A program made the position numbers and the translations under genes. Under the pieces are notes generated by a model, which saw only the letters and a program-made list of their open reading frames with translations, ran no database searches and was not told the origin of the DNA. From positions 33,664 to 97,663 of the forward strand of contig VHDE01000008.1 of NCBI GenBank assembly GCA_016871515.1: a stretch of 64,000 nt of DNA, in the 5' to 3' direction. This DNA is from Verrucomicrobiota bacterium (GTDB taxonomy: Bacteria; Verrucomicrobiota; Verrucomicrobiia; Limisphaerales; SIBE01). Positions 571-61,136 of this stretch are shown one piece after another; the first letter of the stretch is position 1; each line of letters opens with the position of its first letter.

Positions 571-705
571 GTAGCGCAGAGTTTCACTCTGCTGTATCGC
601 CGACTTGCAGTCGGCCACGTGTTCGACTGGTCCAGCGCCTTCGATCGTGCGAGAGCGCCGCAGACTGAAAGTCTGCGATACAGCAAGAGTGAAACTCTGC
701 GCTAC
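571..705. repeat. Two-hairpin inverted repeat, complete copy 1
   Basis: The left arm (571-615) holds two short palindromes, GCAGAGTTTCACTCTGC and GCCGACTTGCAGTCGGC, separated by a TGTATC spacer. The right arm (657-705) is nearly the reverse complement, with GCAGACTGAAAGTCTGC followed by GATACAGC and a second GCAGAGT-type palindrome. The whole can fold into a long cruciform. A second complete copy lies at 3980-4114. Half copies lie near 47533, 58682 and 58980. It sits in the spacer between folD and the DUF6941-like gene and carries no convincing ORF. Confidence 0.85.
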
Positions 706-3808: not shown

Positions 3809-4173
3809 AAGTCCGGTTCTCTTTCGTTGTTAAATTGTTATGTGTAAGCCGCCTCATTTTTGCGGCGGCCAAGACCTGTAACATATCATGCCGTTGCGTG
3901 CCAATGGTAATTCGCGGCGCGGCACGCGGGCCACGCGGGCGCATTTTGAGACCAACACCGGCCGGAGCGCGCCGTTTTCGTAACGCAGAGTTTCACTCTG
4001 CTGTATCGCGGCTTTTCAATCCGCAAGGCTTCCGCCATGACCAGACGCGCTCGACAACACGAAGTCCGTGCCGACTGAAAGTCGGCGATACGGGAGACGA
4101 GAAGTCTGCGCTGCGACCAGAGCGCCAAGAACGATTCGACATGGCGAGCGAGCCGACTTAGGCTACGCAAGCC
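3809..4173. other. Gene-free spacer between divergent small basic protein gene and rnhC
   Basis: About 365 bases separate the minus-strand small basic protein from plus-strand rnhC. The left part should hold their promoters; a GC-rich GCCGC/GCGGC hairpin with an AT loop lies near 3850-3872. The right part is occupied by the second complete copy of the two-hairpin repeat. No coding frame here has family similarity I recognise. Confidence 0.6.
3980..4114. repeat. Two-hairpin inverted repeat, complete copy 2
   Basis: The left arm starts GTAACGCAGAGTTTCAC, continues through TCTGCTGTATCGCGG and into an imperfect second palindrome. The right arm (from 4070) contains GCCGACTGAAAGTCGGC, then GATACGGGAGACGAGAAGTC and TGCGCTGC. 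Architecture and total length (135 bases) match copy 1 at 571-705, while the palindrome stems differ in sequence. It lies 60 bases upstream of rnhC. Confidence 0.8.
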
Positions 4174-47532: not shown

Positions 47533-47587
47533 GTAACGCAGACTTTCAGTCTGCTTTATCGCCGATTTTCAATCGGCAGCGCGCCCG
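47533..47587. repeat. Half copy of the two-hairpin repeat
   Basis: GTAACGCAGACTTTCAGTCT continues through TGCTTTATCGCC and a second palindrome GCCGATTTTCAATCGGC. It matches the left arm of the copies at 571 and 3980. No inverted partner arm follows within 150 bases; instead a different GCGGACA/TGTCCGC palindrome lies about 50 bases downstream. Confidence 0.8.
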
Positions 47588-47689
47588 CGCTTTCCGGGGC
47601 GCTCGAACACCGCGCTTTGAGCAAACTCACGAGGATGCGCGGACAAGGCTGTCCGCACTCCTAGAGAAGGAACGGGTCAACGGAACAAC

Positions 47690-49497: not shown

Positions 49498-49602
49498 ATT
49501 GCTTTCGGAGCGCGGACATTCCTGTCCGCAGTGATCGAGAATTGACCGGGAGCGTTCGAGTTTACGTTGACGGCTGCGGACAGGCATGTCCGCAATCCGG
49601 GC
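49498..49602. repeat. Pair of GCGGACA/TGTCCGC palindromes
   Basis: GCGGACATTCCTGTCCGC (about 49514-49531) and TGCGGACAGGCATGTCCGCA (about 49576-49595) lie between the TIM-barrel gene and the phospholipase D gene. A further copy of the same palindrome is at about 47638. They form a second small repeat family distinct from the GTAACGCAGA type. Confidence 0.75.
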
Positions 49603-56078: not shown

Positions 56079-58670
56079 ATGCGACGACTTTTCCGGATTT
56101 CGCTTTTCTCTTTGGCGCTTACGATGGGCTTCGAAAATGGCGTGGCTCAACCCGCGCGAGCGCCGTTGAATTTGCCAGGCATTAAGGCAGATGGATCGGT
56201 GTTGCTGCCGAATCAATGGTCCTTGCGGCCAGTCGGACGCCAAATCCTCTTGGGAGATTTTCCGGTCAATATTGCGGTTCATCCTAACAATCGCTTCGCG
56301 GCCGTCTTGCACGCGGGCTACGACAAACATGAAATCATTGTCGTGGATCTCCGATCGGCGGCGATTTTCTCACGACGCAGCATCGAAGAGACCTTTTATG
56401 GCATCGAGTTTTCGCGCGACGGAACAAAACTTTATTGCAGCGGGGCAGGCGATGAGGTTATTCATAGCTTCCACTTTCAGGCCGGCGAATTGTCGAATCA
56501 CCGCCGCATCCAATTGCGTGCTGCCAAGCAACGCGGTGTTCCATCGGGTTTGGCGCTTTCGCGCAACGCCCGCGATCTCTTCATCGCGAACGTCTGGGGC
56601 AATACCATCACGAAACTCGACTTGTCCGAAAGAAAGGTGGAATGGGACCTGCCGTTGCTTCCCGCAAGTCGCAGCTCTGGCGGGCAGCCGGTCATTCCGC
56701 CCGCCGATCCAGACATCGCCGCAGCGACAAAACGGGCCGAAGCTATGGAAGACCCCGCCGATCCGAGCGCACCGTTTCCTTACGCCTGCCGAGTGGATGA
56801 CCAGCGTGGCCGTTTGTATGTCAGCCTCTGGGCTAAAGCGACCGTCGCCGTCATCGATCTAAAAACCAAACAGGCGATTGCGCATTGGCCTGCGGAAGAG
56901 CATCCGAACGAAATGATTCTCACGAAGTCAGGCCAACTCCTCTATGTCGCCAATGCCAATCGGAACACGGTCACCGTTTTCGATACTCGCGCGGGCCGAC
57001 CCCTCGAAACGCTTTCCGCATCGCTTTATTCATCGCTGCTTCCCGGCACGACTCCGAACAGCCTGGCGTTGTCGCCGGACGAGAAAAAGCTATTTGTCGC
57101 TAACGCCTGCAACAATAACGTCGCTGTCTTCGATGTGAGCAAGCCAGGCCAAAGCCGGTCGATGGGTTTTATTCCGGTGGGTTGGTATCCGACGTCCGTG
57201 CGAATTACTCCCGATGGCCGCCGGCTGTTGGTCGCAAACGGGAAAGGGCAAATCTCGAAAGCCAATCCGGGCGGTCCGCAGCCGGTCAAGCGCCCGCCAG
57301 GAACAATCGTCGAGTATATTGGCGGGCTCTTTCAGGGAACGCTCAGCATCATCGATCTGGCCAGCGGGCCAAACTTCGAACAACAACTGGCCACTTATAC
57401 TGCCCAAGCCTATCGCTGCAGCCCACTCAAGGCCGACGCTGGCGTCTCCATTCCACGTCCCGCCGGAAATCCGATTCCGCTGCGGCCGGGTGACCCCAGT
57501 CCCATCAAGTATTGCATCTATGTGATCAAGGAGAATCGAACGTACGATCAGGTATTAGGCGACATGCCGGAGGGGAACGGCGATCCTCGGCTCTGTCTGT
57601 TTCCCGAGCGAGTCACACCAAACCATCATGCTCTCGCGCGTGAGTTTGTCCTGCTGGATAATTTTTACGTCGAAAGCGAAGTCAGTGCCGACGGCCACGA
57701 ATGGACTGTCGGCGCGTATGCGACGGATTTTGTCGAGAAGACATGGCCGTTGAATTACGGTCACAAGAAGAGCGGAAAGTTTCCTTACCCCAGCGAAGGC
57801 CGATTTGCTCTCGCGGAGCCTGCCGGGGGCTATCTTTGGGACCGTGCCCGCGAGGCGAAAGTGTCCTGCCGCAGCTACGGCGAGTTCGTCAACAACGGCA
57901 AAACGCTGAGTGAACCTTGCACGGCGCGCGTCGCTGGATTGCGCGGACATATCGACGAATGGTTTCGAGGTTGGGACATGGATTACCCAGACGTGAAGCG
58001 CGCCGAGCGGTTTCTGCAGGAAGTGAAGCGCTTCGAGAGGGAAGGGGAGATGCCGCGTTTGCAAATCGTCCGCCTCCCGAACGATCACACTTACGGCACT
58101 GCCGCGGGGAAACCAACCCCAACGGCCATGGTCGCGGAAAACGATCTGGCCTTCGGCATGTTGGTCGAAGGCGTTACGCAATCGAAGTTTTGGCCGCAGA
58201 CCGCTATTTTCGTCGTGGAAGACGATGCTCAAAACGGACCGGACCACGTCGATGCCCATCGCACGATTGCTTACGCGATCAGCCCTTATATCAAACGTGG
58301 CGCAGTCGATTCGACGATGTATTCGACGAGCAGCATGCTGCGGACGATGGAGTTGATTTTGGGATTGAAGCCGATGTCGCAATTCGATGCCGCAGCTGCG
58401 CCCATGTACCATTCATTCCAAGAAAAGCCTGACCTCCGTCCGTACCAAGCTCGCCCGGCCAATGTGAGTTTGACGGAGCAAAATCCCAAGACTGCTTGGG
58501 GCAGCGAACGCTCCAAGAAAATGGATTTTTCAAAGGAGGATGCCGCGGATGATCTAATGCTGAACGAGGTGATCTGGCGTTCGGTGCGCGGCGCAGATTC
58601 TCCAATGCCAGCCCCAACGCGCGCGGCCTTCGTTTTCACACACACCGACGACGATGATGAGGAGGATTGA
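56079..58670 (+). CDS. Secreted beta-propeller/phosphoesterase fusion
   Basis: An 863-residue exported protein (signal MRRLFRISLFSLALTMGF, ending near GVAQPA). Residues about 45-430 form a YncE/Lactonase-like propeller, with blades such as GQLLYVANANRNTVTVFDTR and KKLFVANACNNNVAVFDVSK. From about 475 onward there is a phosphoesterase domain of the phospholipase C/acid phosphatase type: YVIKENRTYDQVLGDMPEGN, DNFYVESEVSADGHEW and FVVEDDAQNGPDHVDAHR. The C-terminus is acidic (HTDDDDEED). It may release phosphate from organic esters; the substrate is unknown. This two-domain architecture recurs in Verrucomicrobia. Confidence 0.85.
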   Translation: MRRLFRISLFSLALTMGFENGVAQPARAPLNLPGIKADGSVLLPNQWSLRPVGRQILLGDFPVNIAVHPNNRFAAVLHAGYDKHEIIVVDLRSAAIFSRRSIEETFYGIEFSRDGTKLYCSGAGDEVIHSFHFQAGELSNHRRIQLRAAKQRGVPSGLALSRNARDLFIANVWGNTITKLDLSERKVEWDLPLLPASRSSGGQPVIPPADPDIAAATKRAEAMEDPADPSAPFPYACRVDDQRGRLYVSLWAKATVAVIDLKTKQAIAHWPAEEHPNEMILTKSGQLLYVANANRNTVTVFDTRAGRPLETLSASLYSSLLPGTTPNSLALSPDEKKLFVANACNNNVAVFDVSKPGQSRSMGFIPVGWYPTSVRITPDGRRLLVANGKGQISKANPGGPQPVKRPPGTIVEYIGGLFQGTLSIIDLASGPNFEQQLATYTAQAYRCSPLKADAGVSIPRPAGNPIPLRPGDPSPIKYCIYVIKENRTYDQVLGDMPEGNGDPRLCLFPERVTPNHHALAREFVLLDNFYVESEVSADGHEWTVGAYATDFVEKTWPLNYGHKKSGKFPYPSEGRFALAEPAGGYLWDRAREAKVSCRSYGEFVNNGKTLSEPCTARVAGLRGHIDEWFRGWDMDYPDVKRAERFLQEVKRFEREGEMPRLQIVRLPNDHTYGTAAGKPTPTAMVAENDLAFGMLVEGVTQSKFWPQTAIFVVEDDAQNGPDHVDAHRTIAYAISPYIKRGAVDSTMYSTSSMLRTMELILGLKPMSQFDAAAAPMYHSFQEKPDLRPYQARPANVSLTEQNPKTAWGSERSKKMDFSKEDAADDLMLNEVIWRSVRGADSPMPAPTRAAFVFTHTDDDDEED

Positions 58671-59087
58671 GGTGGCGTAACGCAGATTGCCCAATCTGCT
58701 GTTTCGCCGATTGCCAATCGGCAAGCCGTCTGCCCACGAAACTGCGGAACGTCCGCAGGATGGCATCCTTCCAAGTAGCAAGGTGAATGTTGCCTCTCTC
58801 CCCATCCGATGGGGAGAGAGAGTCGAGCTTTGGCGGTGGGCGATGCCTGATGGACGAACGTGTCCAGCGCCCAGGTCTTTTCCCTCGCCCCATCGGATGG
58901 GGAGAGGGTTAGGGAGAGGGGCGCTGCAACGGTTAGCTACTGCATGCTTCCGCCGCCGAAGAGCGGCTGATTGGCTGCGATACGGCAGACAGGGCTGTCT
59001 GCGCTGCGTGCGTTACATGGGTAATGTGCCGAAAAACATTGCTGGTGGATGTTGGTTTGCTAAAGATGTCGTCCACTCCAACGAACG
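58671..59087. repeat. Composite repeat island between two exported-protein genes
   Basis: Bounded on the left by GTAACGCAGATTGCCCAATC (about 58678) and on the right by a matching inverse arm, CTGCGATACGGCAGACAGGG then CTGTCTGCGCTGCG (about 58975-59010). Inside are CTGCGGaacgtCCGCAG (about 58742), and two hairpins of CTCTCCCCATC / GATGGGGAGAG type (58794-58820 and 58882-58908). There is no coding frame of note. This looks like a two-hairpin element that has taken in other repeats. Confidence 0.75.
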
Positions 59088-59102
59088 ATGGTGGCGAGCA
59101 TT

Positions 59103-61136
59103 ATGAAAAGACTTTTCGCATCCGCAATTGTGACAGCATTCGTCAGCGCCAACATCAGCTCGGCCGCTCCTTCAGCTCCGTTTAGTCCCGAAGATTGGCC
59201 GGCGAGCAAGAATGCTCAAAAGAAAGTTCACTATGTCAGCACTGAAGGCACGTTTGCGCCTCCCAGCGCCAATTGGTCGGCGGACGAGTTGAGGATATTG
59301 AGCGGCGGTGATCAGGTTACTCAGCCGATCACCATTGGCGGCCATAGGGGCGTCAAGGTGACAGGCAATTATCTGAACATCGCAGATTCGTCATTTCAGG
59401 AATGGGCCGACGATGGCACGATCGATATTCTCATGCAGGTCTATGGCGATGCGGCTCTCCTGAATGCGGCTGGTCAACCGCGCAACTTCAATTTCTTGAC
59501 TGGAACCTTGCCGGAACTGAACGCTCCGGCGGGCGGCACAATCCCCGTTGAAGCTAAGAACCAACAATGGAACTGGGTGCTCTTCAGAATTCCAAATGGG
59601 ACCCGCCCTTCGGACGGCACGCATTATGTCGGTTCCATTCCAGGAAATGCGCAGGGTAGCACGCAATTTGGCGGAGTTAACGGCGGAACGATCCGCGTTC
59701 AGGCGGTTCCCGGGTTAATCGTGCGCGTTATTGCCTTCGGCGAACAGGGCGCCTTTGGTGAACCCGAACAAGTGAATGTGTTTGCCGCAGGGCAAGCTTG
59801 CGATCCCGAGCCCCCGACAAATCTCGTCTTTATCGACTTCAACAAAAACATGACCAATCATCTCGTCGTCTTGAACAACGGCGATCAAATGGTGACGTTT
59901 CAGGACAACGTGGGACCGGCCGGCGACAAACGCCGCGCCGTGCGCGCCAATGGCAGTTACATGAACTTCGGGATCACCGACAATTACTTGGGCAAACCGT
60001 GCAACGACCCGCGCGCCGTCAAGGTTTGCGTCGATTTCTATGACGATCCGGCGCTGACCGGGGCTGTCTTTGGTCCCGAAGCTTACGCGACCGACAGCAC
60101 CACGGGCGTTGGACAATATCCAGCGGAACGCCGGCATACTTTAGAAGGTTCAGGTAAATGGGTGCGTCGATCCTTTACGGTCGGTTCGGTAAATTTAAGA
60201 GGAGTGAATGCAACAGGATTTACCGCCGGCCCGCGGTGGATCTTCGATAAAGGCAGCGTTTTCATTTCGAGCGTTGATATTGCGGTTTTGCGCACGGGTA
60301 ATCATTCGCTCGCGGGCCAGGACCCTTTGGCGGGTTGTGTCGAGGATCCGAAGATTTGCACGGACGCTTACGGCAGCTATGCGGAGTTAGATTTGGGCAA
60401 GGACATCCGGAATGGTCTAGCTCCAGGGAACTCCGGCGGTGATCAGGAAATGATTCAATCGGAAGCCGGTCCCGCAAACGACCGGCGCATGGCGATTCGG
60501 CCAGCCAGGGATGATGGCTCTCCCGGCTTCGGTCATATCTATATGAACTTCGCAATCACGGATGAGGCGCTCGGGCCGTCGAGCCAGCCCAATGCGCGCC
60601 TCGCGATTTGCGTGACGTATTACGACGATCCGGCGTTGGGCGCCGCGACCTTTCGTCCCGAGGTTTATCAATCCGATCGGGCCGGCCAAGTCACTTTGGC
60701 TTTTACCGCTGCTGCCAGCGCGGTGGCGCTTGAAGGGGCTGACAAATGGCGCGACGCCTACTTCGAAATTCCTGATATGAAATTCAATGGGGTCAATCAA
60801 GGCCCGCAAGCTGCGGCGCGCTTCGTTTTCACTGGAAAGGTTTTCTTTAGTCGTCTGCGTTATGCTGTGATTCGTCCGTGTGGACCGAAAGCAGGGATCA
60901 ATCTGTTGGCCGAGTGCAACCCAACCGCGGCGCCTCAATTATTATTTGCATTCGGCGCCAACAAAGCTTTGCGGTTGGCTTGGCCAAGCACTGCGACTGG
61001 CTTTGTCCTGCAACAAACCGCCAGCCTCGGCCCCGCACAATGGACCGCCGTCAGCACAACGCCCGTTGTGGAAGGAAGTCAGAACGTCGTGACCCTTCCC
61101 GCGACAGCGCCTCGGTTTTATCGGTTGGCAAAATGA
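59103..61136 (+). CDS. Secreted protein with three tandem repeats, function unknown
   Basis: A 677-residue exported protein. The ATG at 59103 gives MKRLFASAIVTAFVSANISS, a normal signal peptide; an ATG 15 bases upstream is possible. Three copies of a domain are seen, each starting near GDQ and having a (Y)-(L/M)-N-(I/F) and an FYDDPAL-like element: about 59290-59770 (VYGDAALL), 59800-60340 (VDFYDDPALTGAVF) and 60340-60900 (VTYYDDPALGAATF). The C-terminal 80 residues (LAWPSTATGFVLQQTASLGP and on to RFYRLAK) resemble a C-terminal module common on Verrucomicrobia secreted proteins. I do not recognise an enzymatic motif. It may bind carbohydrate. Confidence 0.7.
   Translation: MKRLFASAIVTAFVSANISSAAPSAPFSPEDWPASKNAQKKVHYVSTEGTFAPPSANWSADELRILSGGDQVTQPITIGGHRGVKVTGNYLNIADSSFQEWADDGTIDILMQVYGDAALLNAAGQPRNFNFLTGTLPELNAPAGGTIPVEAKNQQWNWVLFRIPNGTRPSDGTHYVGSIPGNAQGSTQFGGVNGGTIRVQAVPGLIVRVIAFGEQGAFGEPEQVNVFAAGQACDPEPPTNLVFIDFNKNMTNHLVVLNNGDQMVTFQDNVGPAGDKRRAVRANGSYMNFGITDNYLGKPCNDPRAVKVCVDFYDDPALTGAVFGPEAYATDSTTGVGQYPAERRHTLEGSGKWVRRSFTVGSVNLRGVNATGFTAGPRWIFDKGSVFISSVDIAVLRTGNHSLAGQDPLAGCVEDPKICTDAYGSYAELDLGKDIRNGLAPGNSGGDQEMIQSEAGPANDRRMAIRPARDDGSPGFGHIYMNFAITDEALGPSSQPNARLAICVTYYDDPALGAATFRPEVYQSDRAGQVTLAFTAAASAVALEGADKWRDAYFEIPDMKFNGVNQGPQAAARFVFTGKVFFSRLRYAVIRPCGPKAGINLLAECNPTAAPQLLFAFGANKALRLAWPSTATGFVLQQTASLGPAQWTAVSTTPVVEGSQNVVTLPATAPRFYRLAK

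Follow-up and report, generated by a model that had tools for sequence, protein, structure and literature searches.

REP-type repeats and the four-hairpin unit

Repetitive extragenic palindromic (REP) sequences, their inverted doublets (REPINs), their linkage to REP-associated tyrosine transposases (RAYTs), alternative paired bases in their stems, dimers of unlike partners and tags that act as stop codons have already been published (PMC3733652, PMC3116915). Supercoiling, termination and mRNA stability are named as proposed roles of some REPs, and Opitutus terrae, a member of the Verrucomicrobia, is enriched in the GTAG-tagged type (PMC3733652). The spread of REPs has been called poorly understood (PMC8266576). 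The repeat described here lies at positions 571–705 of a 64,000-nucleotide stretch (the window) of contig VHDE01000008.1 from a Verrucomicrobiota bacterium of the Limisphaerales, the draft genome of which (GCA_016871515.1) comprises 246 contigs and 5.73 Mb. We regard it as a 134-bp, four-hairpin relative of REPINs. The RAYT whose gene is flanked by its copies probably excises or copies it in the form of folded single-stranded DNA.

The anatomy of the repeat was determined in approximately 0.9 Mb of the window's genome, consisting of the first 20 kb of 20 contigs irrespective of hits and the stretches around hits and RAYT genes. The unit was 134–135 bp long, with 134 bp the usual length (found in 18 of the 29 full pairs, a few doubled readings among them), and consisted of two arms inverted relative to each other, which gives four hairpins. 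Each arm was composed of the tag GTA[A/G]C, an outer hairpin (7 bp, loop usually 3 nt), one spacer base, the tag GTATC, and an inner hairpin. The complete unit at 571–705 (plus strand, 145.9 bits) has its left outer hairpin at 571–592 (plus strand; tag GTAGC at 571–575, stem-loop GCAGAGT-TTC-ACTCTGC at 576–592) and its left inner hairpin, of the GCC type, at 594–615 (plus strand; tag GTATC at 594–598, stem-loop GCCGACT-TGC-AGTCGGC at 599–615). The right inner hairpin, of the GCA type, occupies 660–681 (minus strand; GCAGACT-GAA-AGTCTGC at 660–676, tag GTATC at 677–681), and the right outer hairpin, in which one base is inserted, occupies 683–705 (minus strand; tag GTAGC at 701–705). Scores are from a covariance model, R1, built on 24 units of the window's genome, including those at 571–705 and 3980–4114.

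Of 54 tandem pairs, identified in a scan for steps of 20–26 nt, 51 had a step of 23 nt from the outer to the inner hairpin. When base 4 of the tag was left free in the scan, it was A or G in 53 of the 54 outer tags and T in 53 of the 54 inner tags, a count into which two identical copies beside the RAYT gene enter twice. The inner tag was GTATC in 46 pairs. Outer stems began with GCAGA[G/C]T in 44 of 54 cases, and inner stems with GCCGA[C/T]T in 28 of 54, the remainder mostly with GCA or GCG. In 464 kb, made up of the window and 20 kb from the start of each of 20 other contigs, a perfect hairpin directly followed 41 of 1335 GTANC words. This rate, 30.7 per 1000, was the highest among all 64 NNN-NC words, for which the median was 1.6 per 1000, and the hairpins of the repeat are thus not attributable to chance. 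The similarity of the unit stops at its tags: conservation fell to background within two bases ahead of the outer tag, these being mostly T and C (70 arms of the window's genome), and the flanks were unrelated by eye in 11 of 13 copies from the related genomes G005 and G007. The other two, L207 and L210 of G005, have common surroundings, where the palindromic sequences CCATGAACC ... GGTTCATGG enclose the units, which look as though they had been placed into a different repeat.

The unit resembles a REPIN (PMC3116915) as a short inverted REP pair with a spacer that is extragenic, multicopy, and near a RAYT, but it carries four hairpins, two in tandem per arm with differing tags, and the inner pair is of unlike type. 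It is therefore not a doublet in the strict sense, with one inverted REP per end, because each end has two tagged hairpins. With the GTAG-tagged REPs (PMC3733652), it shares a short hairpin with a GTAG-like tag at its foot, the occurrence of sub-families in which complementary stem residues alternate, dimers in head-head arrangement (some with unlike partners), tags that supply stop codons to adjacent open reading frames (ORFs), and repeats flanking RAYT genes; it differs in that tandem pairs with a 23-nt step form the arms of a head-head unit and the inner tag is GTAT. Outer tags were of the REP type (GTAAC or GTAGC) in 49 of 54 tandem pairs, although the strict GTAG form, GTAGC, was present in just 21 of them. 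Bacterial interspersed mosaic elements (BIMEs; PMC2817692) are likewise compound arrays of regularly spaced REPs, but they alternate in orientation, whereas the order here is tandem, inverted, tandem. In the passages of the open-access literature that were searched, no description was found of a unit with tandem hairpins in each arm, a near-fixed tag difference, and a near-invariable unlike inner pair.

The RAYT gene and the range of the repeat

Five Y1 transposase domains were detected in the window's genome. One belonged to an intact RAYT gene (C13:59054–59764, 236 aa) located between two copies of the repeat in direct orientation that were identical over 231 bp, so that a transposase of the type proposed in the earlier note is indeed found beside copies of the element. 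The stop codon of the gene is a TAA within the tag of the downstream unit. The protein scored 101 bits against the NCBIfam family NF047646 (REP_Tyr_transpos; cut-off 80), two of its kin scoring 79.2, just below the cut-off, and its sequence matched E. coli TnpAREP (4er8) with E = 1.6e-5. It is not an IS200/IS605 transposase by NF033573 (25.7 bits, cut-off 55). The motifs NHVH, FWQ, and YVTNNP were present, and both HUH histidines and Tyr207, which from the alignment and knowledge of the family we take to be the catalytic tyrosine, were invariant in eight of eight aligned RAYTs. By the printed motifs alone, the nearest described group is TnpAREP subclass 2.4 (NH[IFV]H, WQ, YIxNNP; PMC6006769), which is described as having long canonical or double-foot REPs, and also REPs inside the gene. 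Several kin of the present RAYT have Y..MNP or Y..RNP.

RAYT loci in named genomes were examined as the best 80 of at least 545. The 14 loci nearest to the present RAYT (L119–L132; 13 labelled Verrucomicrobia or similar and one 'bacterium') all had an R1 match of more than 45 bits beside the gene, compared with only L181 among the other 66. At L132, the unit was on one side only, as the contig ends after the gene; in the other 13 loci, the stop codon of the RAYT was the tag of a unit in eight. On a tree of the 14 four-hairpin RAYTs and 26 others, the label changed twice, compared with a mean of 11.8 for shuffled labels. One RAYT clade thus accompanies the four-hairpin architecture. Tandem tagged hairpins approximately 24–27 nt apart were also seen at RAYTs outside this clade (L133, L147, L150, and L024), and tandem arms may therefore extend beyond it. 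GTA-tagged hairpins of differing sequence surrounded the RAYT gene in 10 of 11 near genomes inspected, L023 being without them.

As the repeat flanks the RAYT gene here and in relatives, the RAYT is its likely mover; we infer this from the linkage of gene and unit together with published work on TnpAREP. The earlier note had expected an element either moved by a RAYT-type transposase or acting as RNA; the linkage supports the former, and no clear positive evidence emerged for the latter.

The repeat is not limited to the window, where it was first noticed. R1 matched at least 57 times genome-wide, in 47 distinct places among the matches listed, and a DNA similarity search with 571–705 and its flanks gave at least 88 matches in the genome, many of which were the two strands of one place (best 40 of 237 candidates scored). 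The search of related genomes with a covariance model that the earlier note had proposed was performed on 58 genomes, namely the window's genome and relatives of its genus, family, and order, with at most 57 candidates scored per genome. R1 matches (E 0.001) were obtained in 36 of these genomes, weak and few in some of them, and RAYT matches at the same threshold in 43, the window's genome counted. In a wider draw from the phylum (14 candidates scored per genome), R1 matched at E 0.001 in 5 of 240 genomes, including the window's own; the other four did not exceed 52 bits. Dispersed, mostly intergenic units in many genomes of one order would also be expected if the repeats were now immobile and the host retained them as sites for protein binding or DNA topology, as suggested for some REPs. 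We consider this very improbable, since match numbers vary widely among related genomes (counted up to at least 57), the motifs and open frame of the RAYT are kept, and its flanking copies are identical.

The same genome holds a second RAYT (C44:1–1300, L017) flanked by another REP type with the tag GGACC, so that one genome has two RAYTs and two tag types. Hairpins with a GGAGC tag, for example GCGGACATTCCTGTCCGC, occur scattered through this genome, one of them in the window at 49507–49530. Tag class was compared with the residue aligned with H101 of E. coli TnpAREP for loci L011, L019–L048, and L119–L198 (102 after 9 duplicates were dropped, 85 with a readable motif and 17 without); 22 of the 85 had no clear tag class, leaving 63. 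All 40 loci with His had GT tags, all 18 loci with GGA tags had a residue other than His, and 5 non-His loci had GT tags. On the tree of the 63 loci, the tag class changed approximately three times, with only two well-supported independent pairs, and no link between tag class and residue beyond kinship was therefore demonstrated.

Paired stem changes, unlike inner hairpins and genomic setting

The stems had been reported in the earlier note to change jointly on both sides, and random, unpaired substitutions genome-wide would have spoken against this. Paired substitutions were found in the sampled DNA. Selecting on the 5' half of the hairpin alone, we retained all 169 places in the approximately 0.9 Mb, of which 35 had fewer than five of the seven pairs and probably represent chance. 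Stem pair 3 was A-T in 86 and C-G in 37 places, and stem pair 6 was C-G in 60, G-C in 54, T-A in 20, and A-T in 6. In the alignment of 24 units, the local four-hairpin structure had 96.6% of its cells paired and 35 cells changed on both sides, compared with 9.4 in shuffles, and none of 500 shuffles, which leave relatedness among the units in place, was as high on any of five measures. For pairing between the arms, 85.0% of the cells were paired, compared with 84.2% in shuffles, both-side changes numbered 20 compared with 15.3 (38 of 500 shuffles as high), and the covariation score was 0.102 compared with 0.089. As local pairing far exceeds the shuffles and arm pairing hardly does, the local hairpins are mainly what evolution has held. 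One long cruciform as the chief conserved structure is accordingly not favoured. Single-strand folding of two individual copies paired the arms. The between-arm pair 31:106 was broken in all 24 units, an inequality that arises partly by choice, the units having been oriented by their GCC type. Mispaired intermediates occur among the 24 units; whole-hairpin swaps between copies by recombination could mimic covariation.

Paired changes suit RNA as well as single-stranded DNA, and a repeat that acts as RNA, its transcribed hairpins stabilising or ending mRNAs and its paired changes kept for RNA folding, was weighed against the setting of the copies. Tag-strand G-T mispairs exceeded A-C mispairs weakly at the loosest arm cut-off (31 vs. 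17, p = 0.06), but the excess weakened at stricter cut-offs (16 vs. 9, p = 0.23; 10 vs. 4, p = 0.18). With crude gene calls, 36 of 46 elements in the sampled DNA were intergenic, 8 lay in called ORFs, and 2 were at edges; the intergenic share (36 of 44) compares with 18% of 20,000 random placements, that is, the repeat is multicopy and mostly between genes, as are REPs. The intergenic elements occupied 23 unidirectional, 9 divergent, and 4 convergent gaps (210, 73, and 59 available), and their distances had a median of 86 bp for 3' ends (31) and 114 bp for 5' ends (41). Neither 3' ends nor gaps between convergent genes were markedly enriched, and a terminator or 3'-end RNA element was rejected because the bias in gene orientation is not marked. 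Rfam matches in the window at gathering scores were three tRNAs only. An RNA role is improbable in our judgement; it would also fail to explain why the unit is nearly symmetrical and why it is linked to a transposase.

Four of the eight elements in called ORFs (C18:16647, C93:333, C23:5698, and C23:7450) lay in the 5' part of the ORF, ahead of a type IV pilin-like signal, FTL[I/L]ELLVV; as this signal comes after the unit, these four ORF starts are probably misplaced. The unit at C13:54678 is in frame within an ORF of 2435 aa. Its peptide was absent by eye from seven aligned kin, and the site is a hypervariable linker in which L247 (G005) has other repeats.

The two arms had been described as the same in inverse, which they are not: the inner hairpins differ in type (GCC vs. 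GCA or GCG), and the right outer hairpin is damaged at 3980–4114 and has an inserted base at 571–705. Exactly one inner hairpin was of the GCC type in 22 of 23 distinct full units with ungapped arms from the window's genome; the unit at 571–705, which is outside this set because of its gapped arm, fits the same rule. The inner arms were alike at 15 of 92 variable positions, compared with a mean of 37.2 (range 19–58) in 2000 re-dealings of the arms. Elsewhere, exactly one GCC type was present in all 17 distinct units among 20 copies fetched from G003, G005, and G007 (several of those from G003 near-identical). The same was true of 20 of 23 units at best-copy loci (19 of 29 such loci contributing) and of 21 of 24 units at RAYT loci (13 of 14 contributing), the latter two sets having three loci in common. 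The apparent exceptions L103 and L126 are a single locus misread across two adjacent units. The third position of the outer stem, in turn, was A in 34 of 34, 43 of 46, and 44 of 48 arms of these three sets and in 55 of 61 arms of the window's genome. Position 6 of the left outer stem varies (G-C 13 and C-G 10 among 24 units), and the rigidity of position 3 is therefore not merely a lack of mutation.

The window contains further copies. The earlier note had placed complete copies at 571–705 and 3980–4114, and the sequence at both fits its description, with the quoted stems present. The second unit (3980–4114, minus strand, 125 bits) has its GCC-type inner hairpin on the right and a decayed right outer hairpin. 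Of the three supposed half copies at 47533, 58682, and 58975, only the last is a mere remnant; the R1 matches of the other two span the full length of the model, and they look like decayed whole units. That at 47533–47661 (strand undefined, 67.7 bits) has an intact left arm at 47533–47577 with the inner tag TTATC and a degraded right half. That at 58677–58798 (plus strand, 49.5 bits) has an intact left arm at 58677–58722 with an outer loop of 4 nt and the inner tag GTTTC. The right-arm remnant at 58979–59007 (minus strand; best overlapping match 17.7 bits) retains the outer hairpin GCAGACAGGGCTGTCTGC with a decayed outer tag and perhaps once closed the 58677 unit on its right. Between the arm at 58677 and the remnant, at 58796–58906, a CTCTCCCCATC.GATGGGGAGAG-type repeat is present in inverted copies and may be another repeat that broke the unit. 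The claim that all copies are between genes holds, on the crude gene calls, for 571, 3980, and 47533, and is conditional for 58677, which sits between the long ORFs 56079–58670 and 59088–61136 and is intergenic if two shorter overlapping ORFs, 58286–58774 (minus strand) and 58687–59106 (plus strand), are not genes. A perfect inverted repeat of 25 bp with a gap of 19 nt, GGTAGGGCGGCGTTGCTGCGCCGCC, was also observed at 1687–1755.

Proposed movement and its significance

TnpAREP acts strand-specifically on single-stranded REPs (PMC8266576). In the proposed mechanism, the RAYT would bind all tagged hairpins on the strand that carries the tag. Cutting would take place at the outer hairpins, whose tags have a purine at base 4; the inner ones, which have T there, would be bound but poorly cut. 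The prediction of outer cutting and of inner binding without efficient cutting is based on the TnpAREP of S. maltophilia, for which binding survives single tag changes and changes at bases 3 and 4 abolish cleavage (PMC8266576). The unlike inner hairpins would keep the unit from closing into one long hairpin, leaving four sites available in a 23-nt register, and would make the left and right ends distinguishable, giving the unit polarity. Such a two-tier tag code, with outer GTA(A/G) cut and inner GTAT only bound, is offered tentatively and is less likely than not.

Several observations weigh against movement by the RAYT or against the tag code. Neither binding nor catalysis by E. coli TnpAREP tolerates a substitution in the tag (PMC8266576), and a GTAT tag therefore need not be bound; approximately half of the outer tags here are GTAA instead of GTAG. 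Pairing between the arms was slightly above the shuffles, 3 of 500 of which reached its share of paired cells and 6 of 500 its covariation score. The rule of the unlike inner pair has exceptions, namely one GCT/GCA unit in the window's genome, L098, L109, and L125 (twice), and the unlike pair could have been inherited from one ancestral unit and not selected. L158, a long branch within the four-hairpin RAYT clade, lacks a clear four-hairpin flank, and the genomes G016 and G025 have 24 and 54 R1 matches, respectively, without a RAYT match, which may reflect loss, drafts that are incomplete, or a different carrier. Comparisons of C13:54678 and of the G002 counterpart of window ORF 740–1630 yielded no base-exact empty site; the latter had no unit in its neighbourhood by scan, and at a DNA identity of just 72%, the site is unusable for base-exact comparison.

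The copies of G003 form a further point of this kind, as 24 of 27 fetched copies were nested in a larger repeat of approximately 210 bp and had spread with it. This larger repeat has short inverted ends, GACGACA/TGTCGTC, by eye (copies L199–L205 and L221–L240), and 8 of 20 G003 units, fetched for their high scores, were identical. A burst of independent insertions in G003 was rejected because most copies are nested in this way, and G003 is consequently not counted as evidence of movement by the RAYT. Units could in this way be passengers of whichever mobile elements they happen to sit in, but copies in the window's genome, and for the most part those in G005 and G007, are similar no further than their tags, and the linkage to RAYTs is specific to one RAYT clade; as a general account of the family, passenger spread is hardly to be expected.

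Read as a REPIN relative that is probably moved by its RAYT, the family offers an unusual handle on the spread of REPs, as its stems occur in many natural variants, its outer and inner tags differ almost strictly, and an apparently intact RAYT lies between identical copies. With these features, one can ask which base of the tag determines cutting and whether an element gains direction from unequal hairpins. It also adds a Verrucomicrobiota order to Opitutus terrae, the sole verrucomicrobial genome named in the available portions of the REP survey (PMC3733652).
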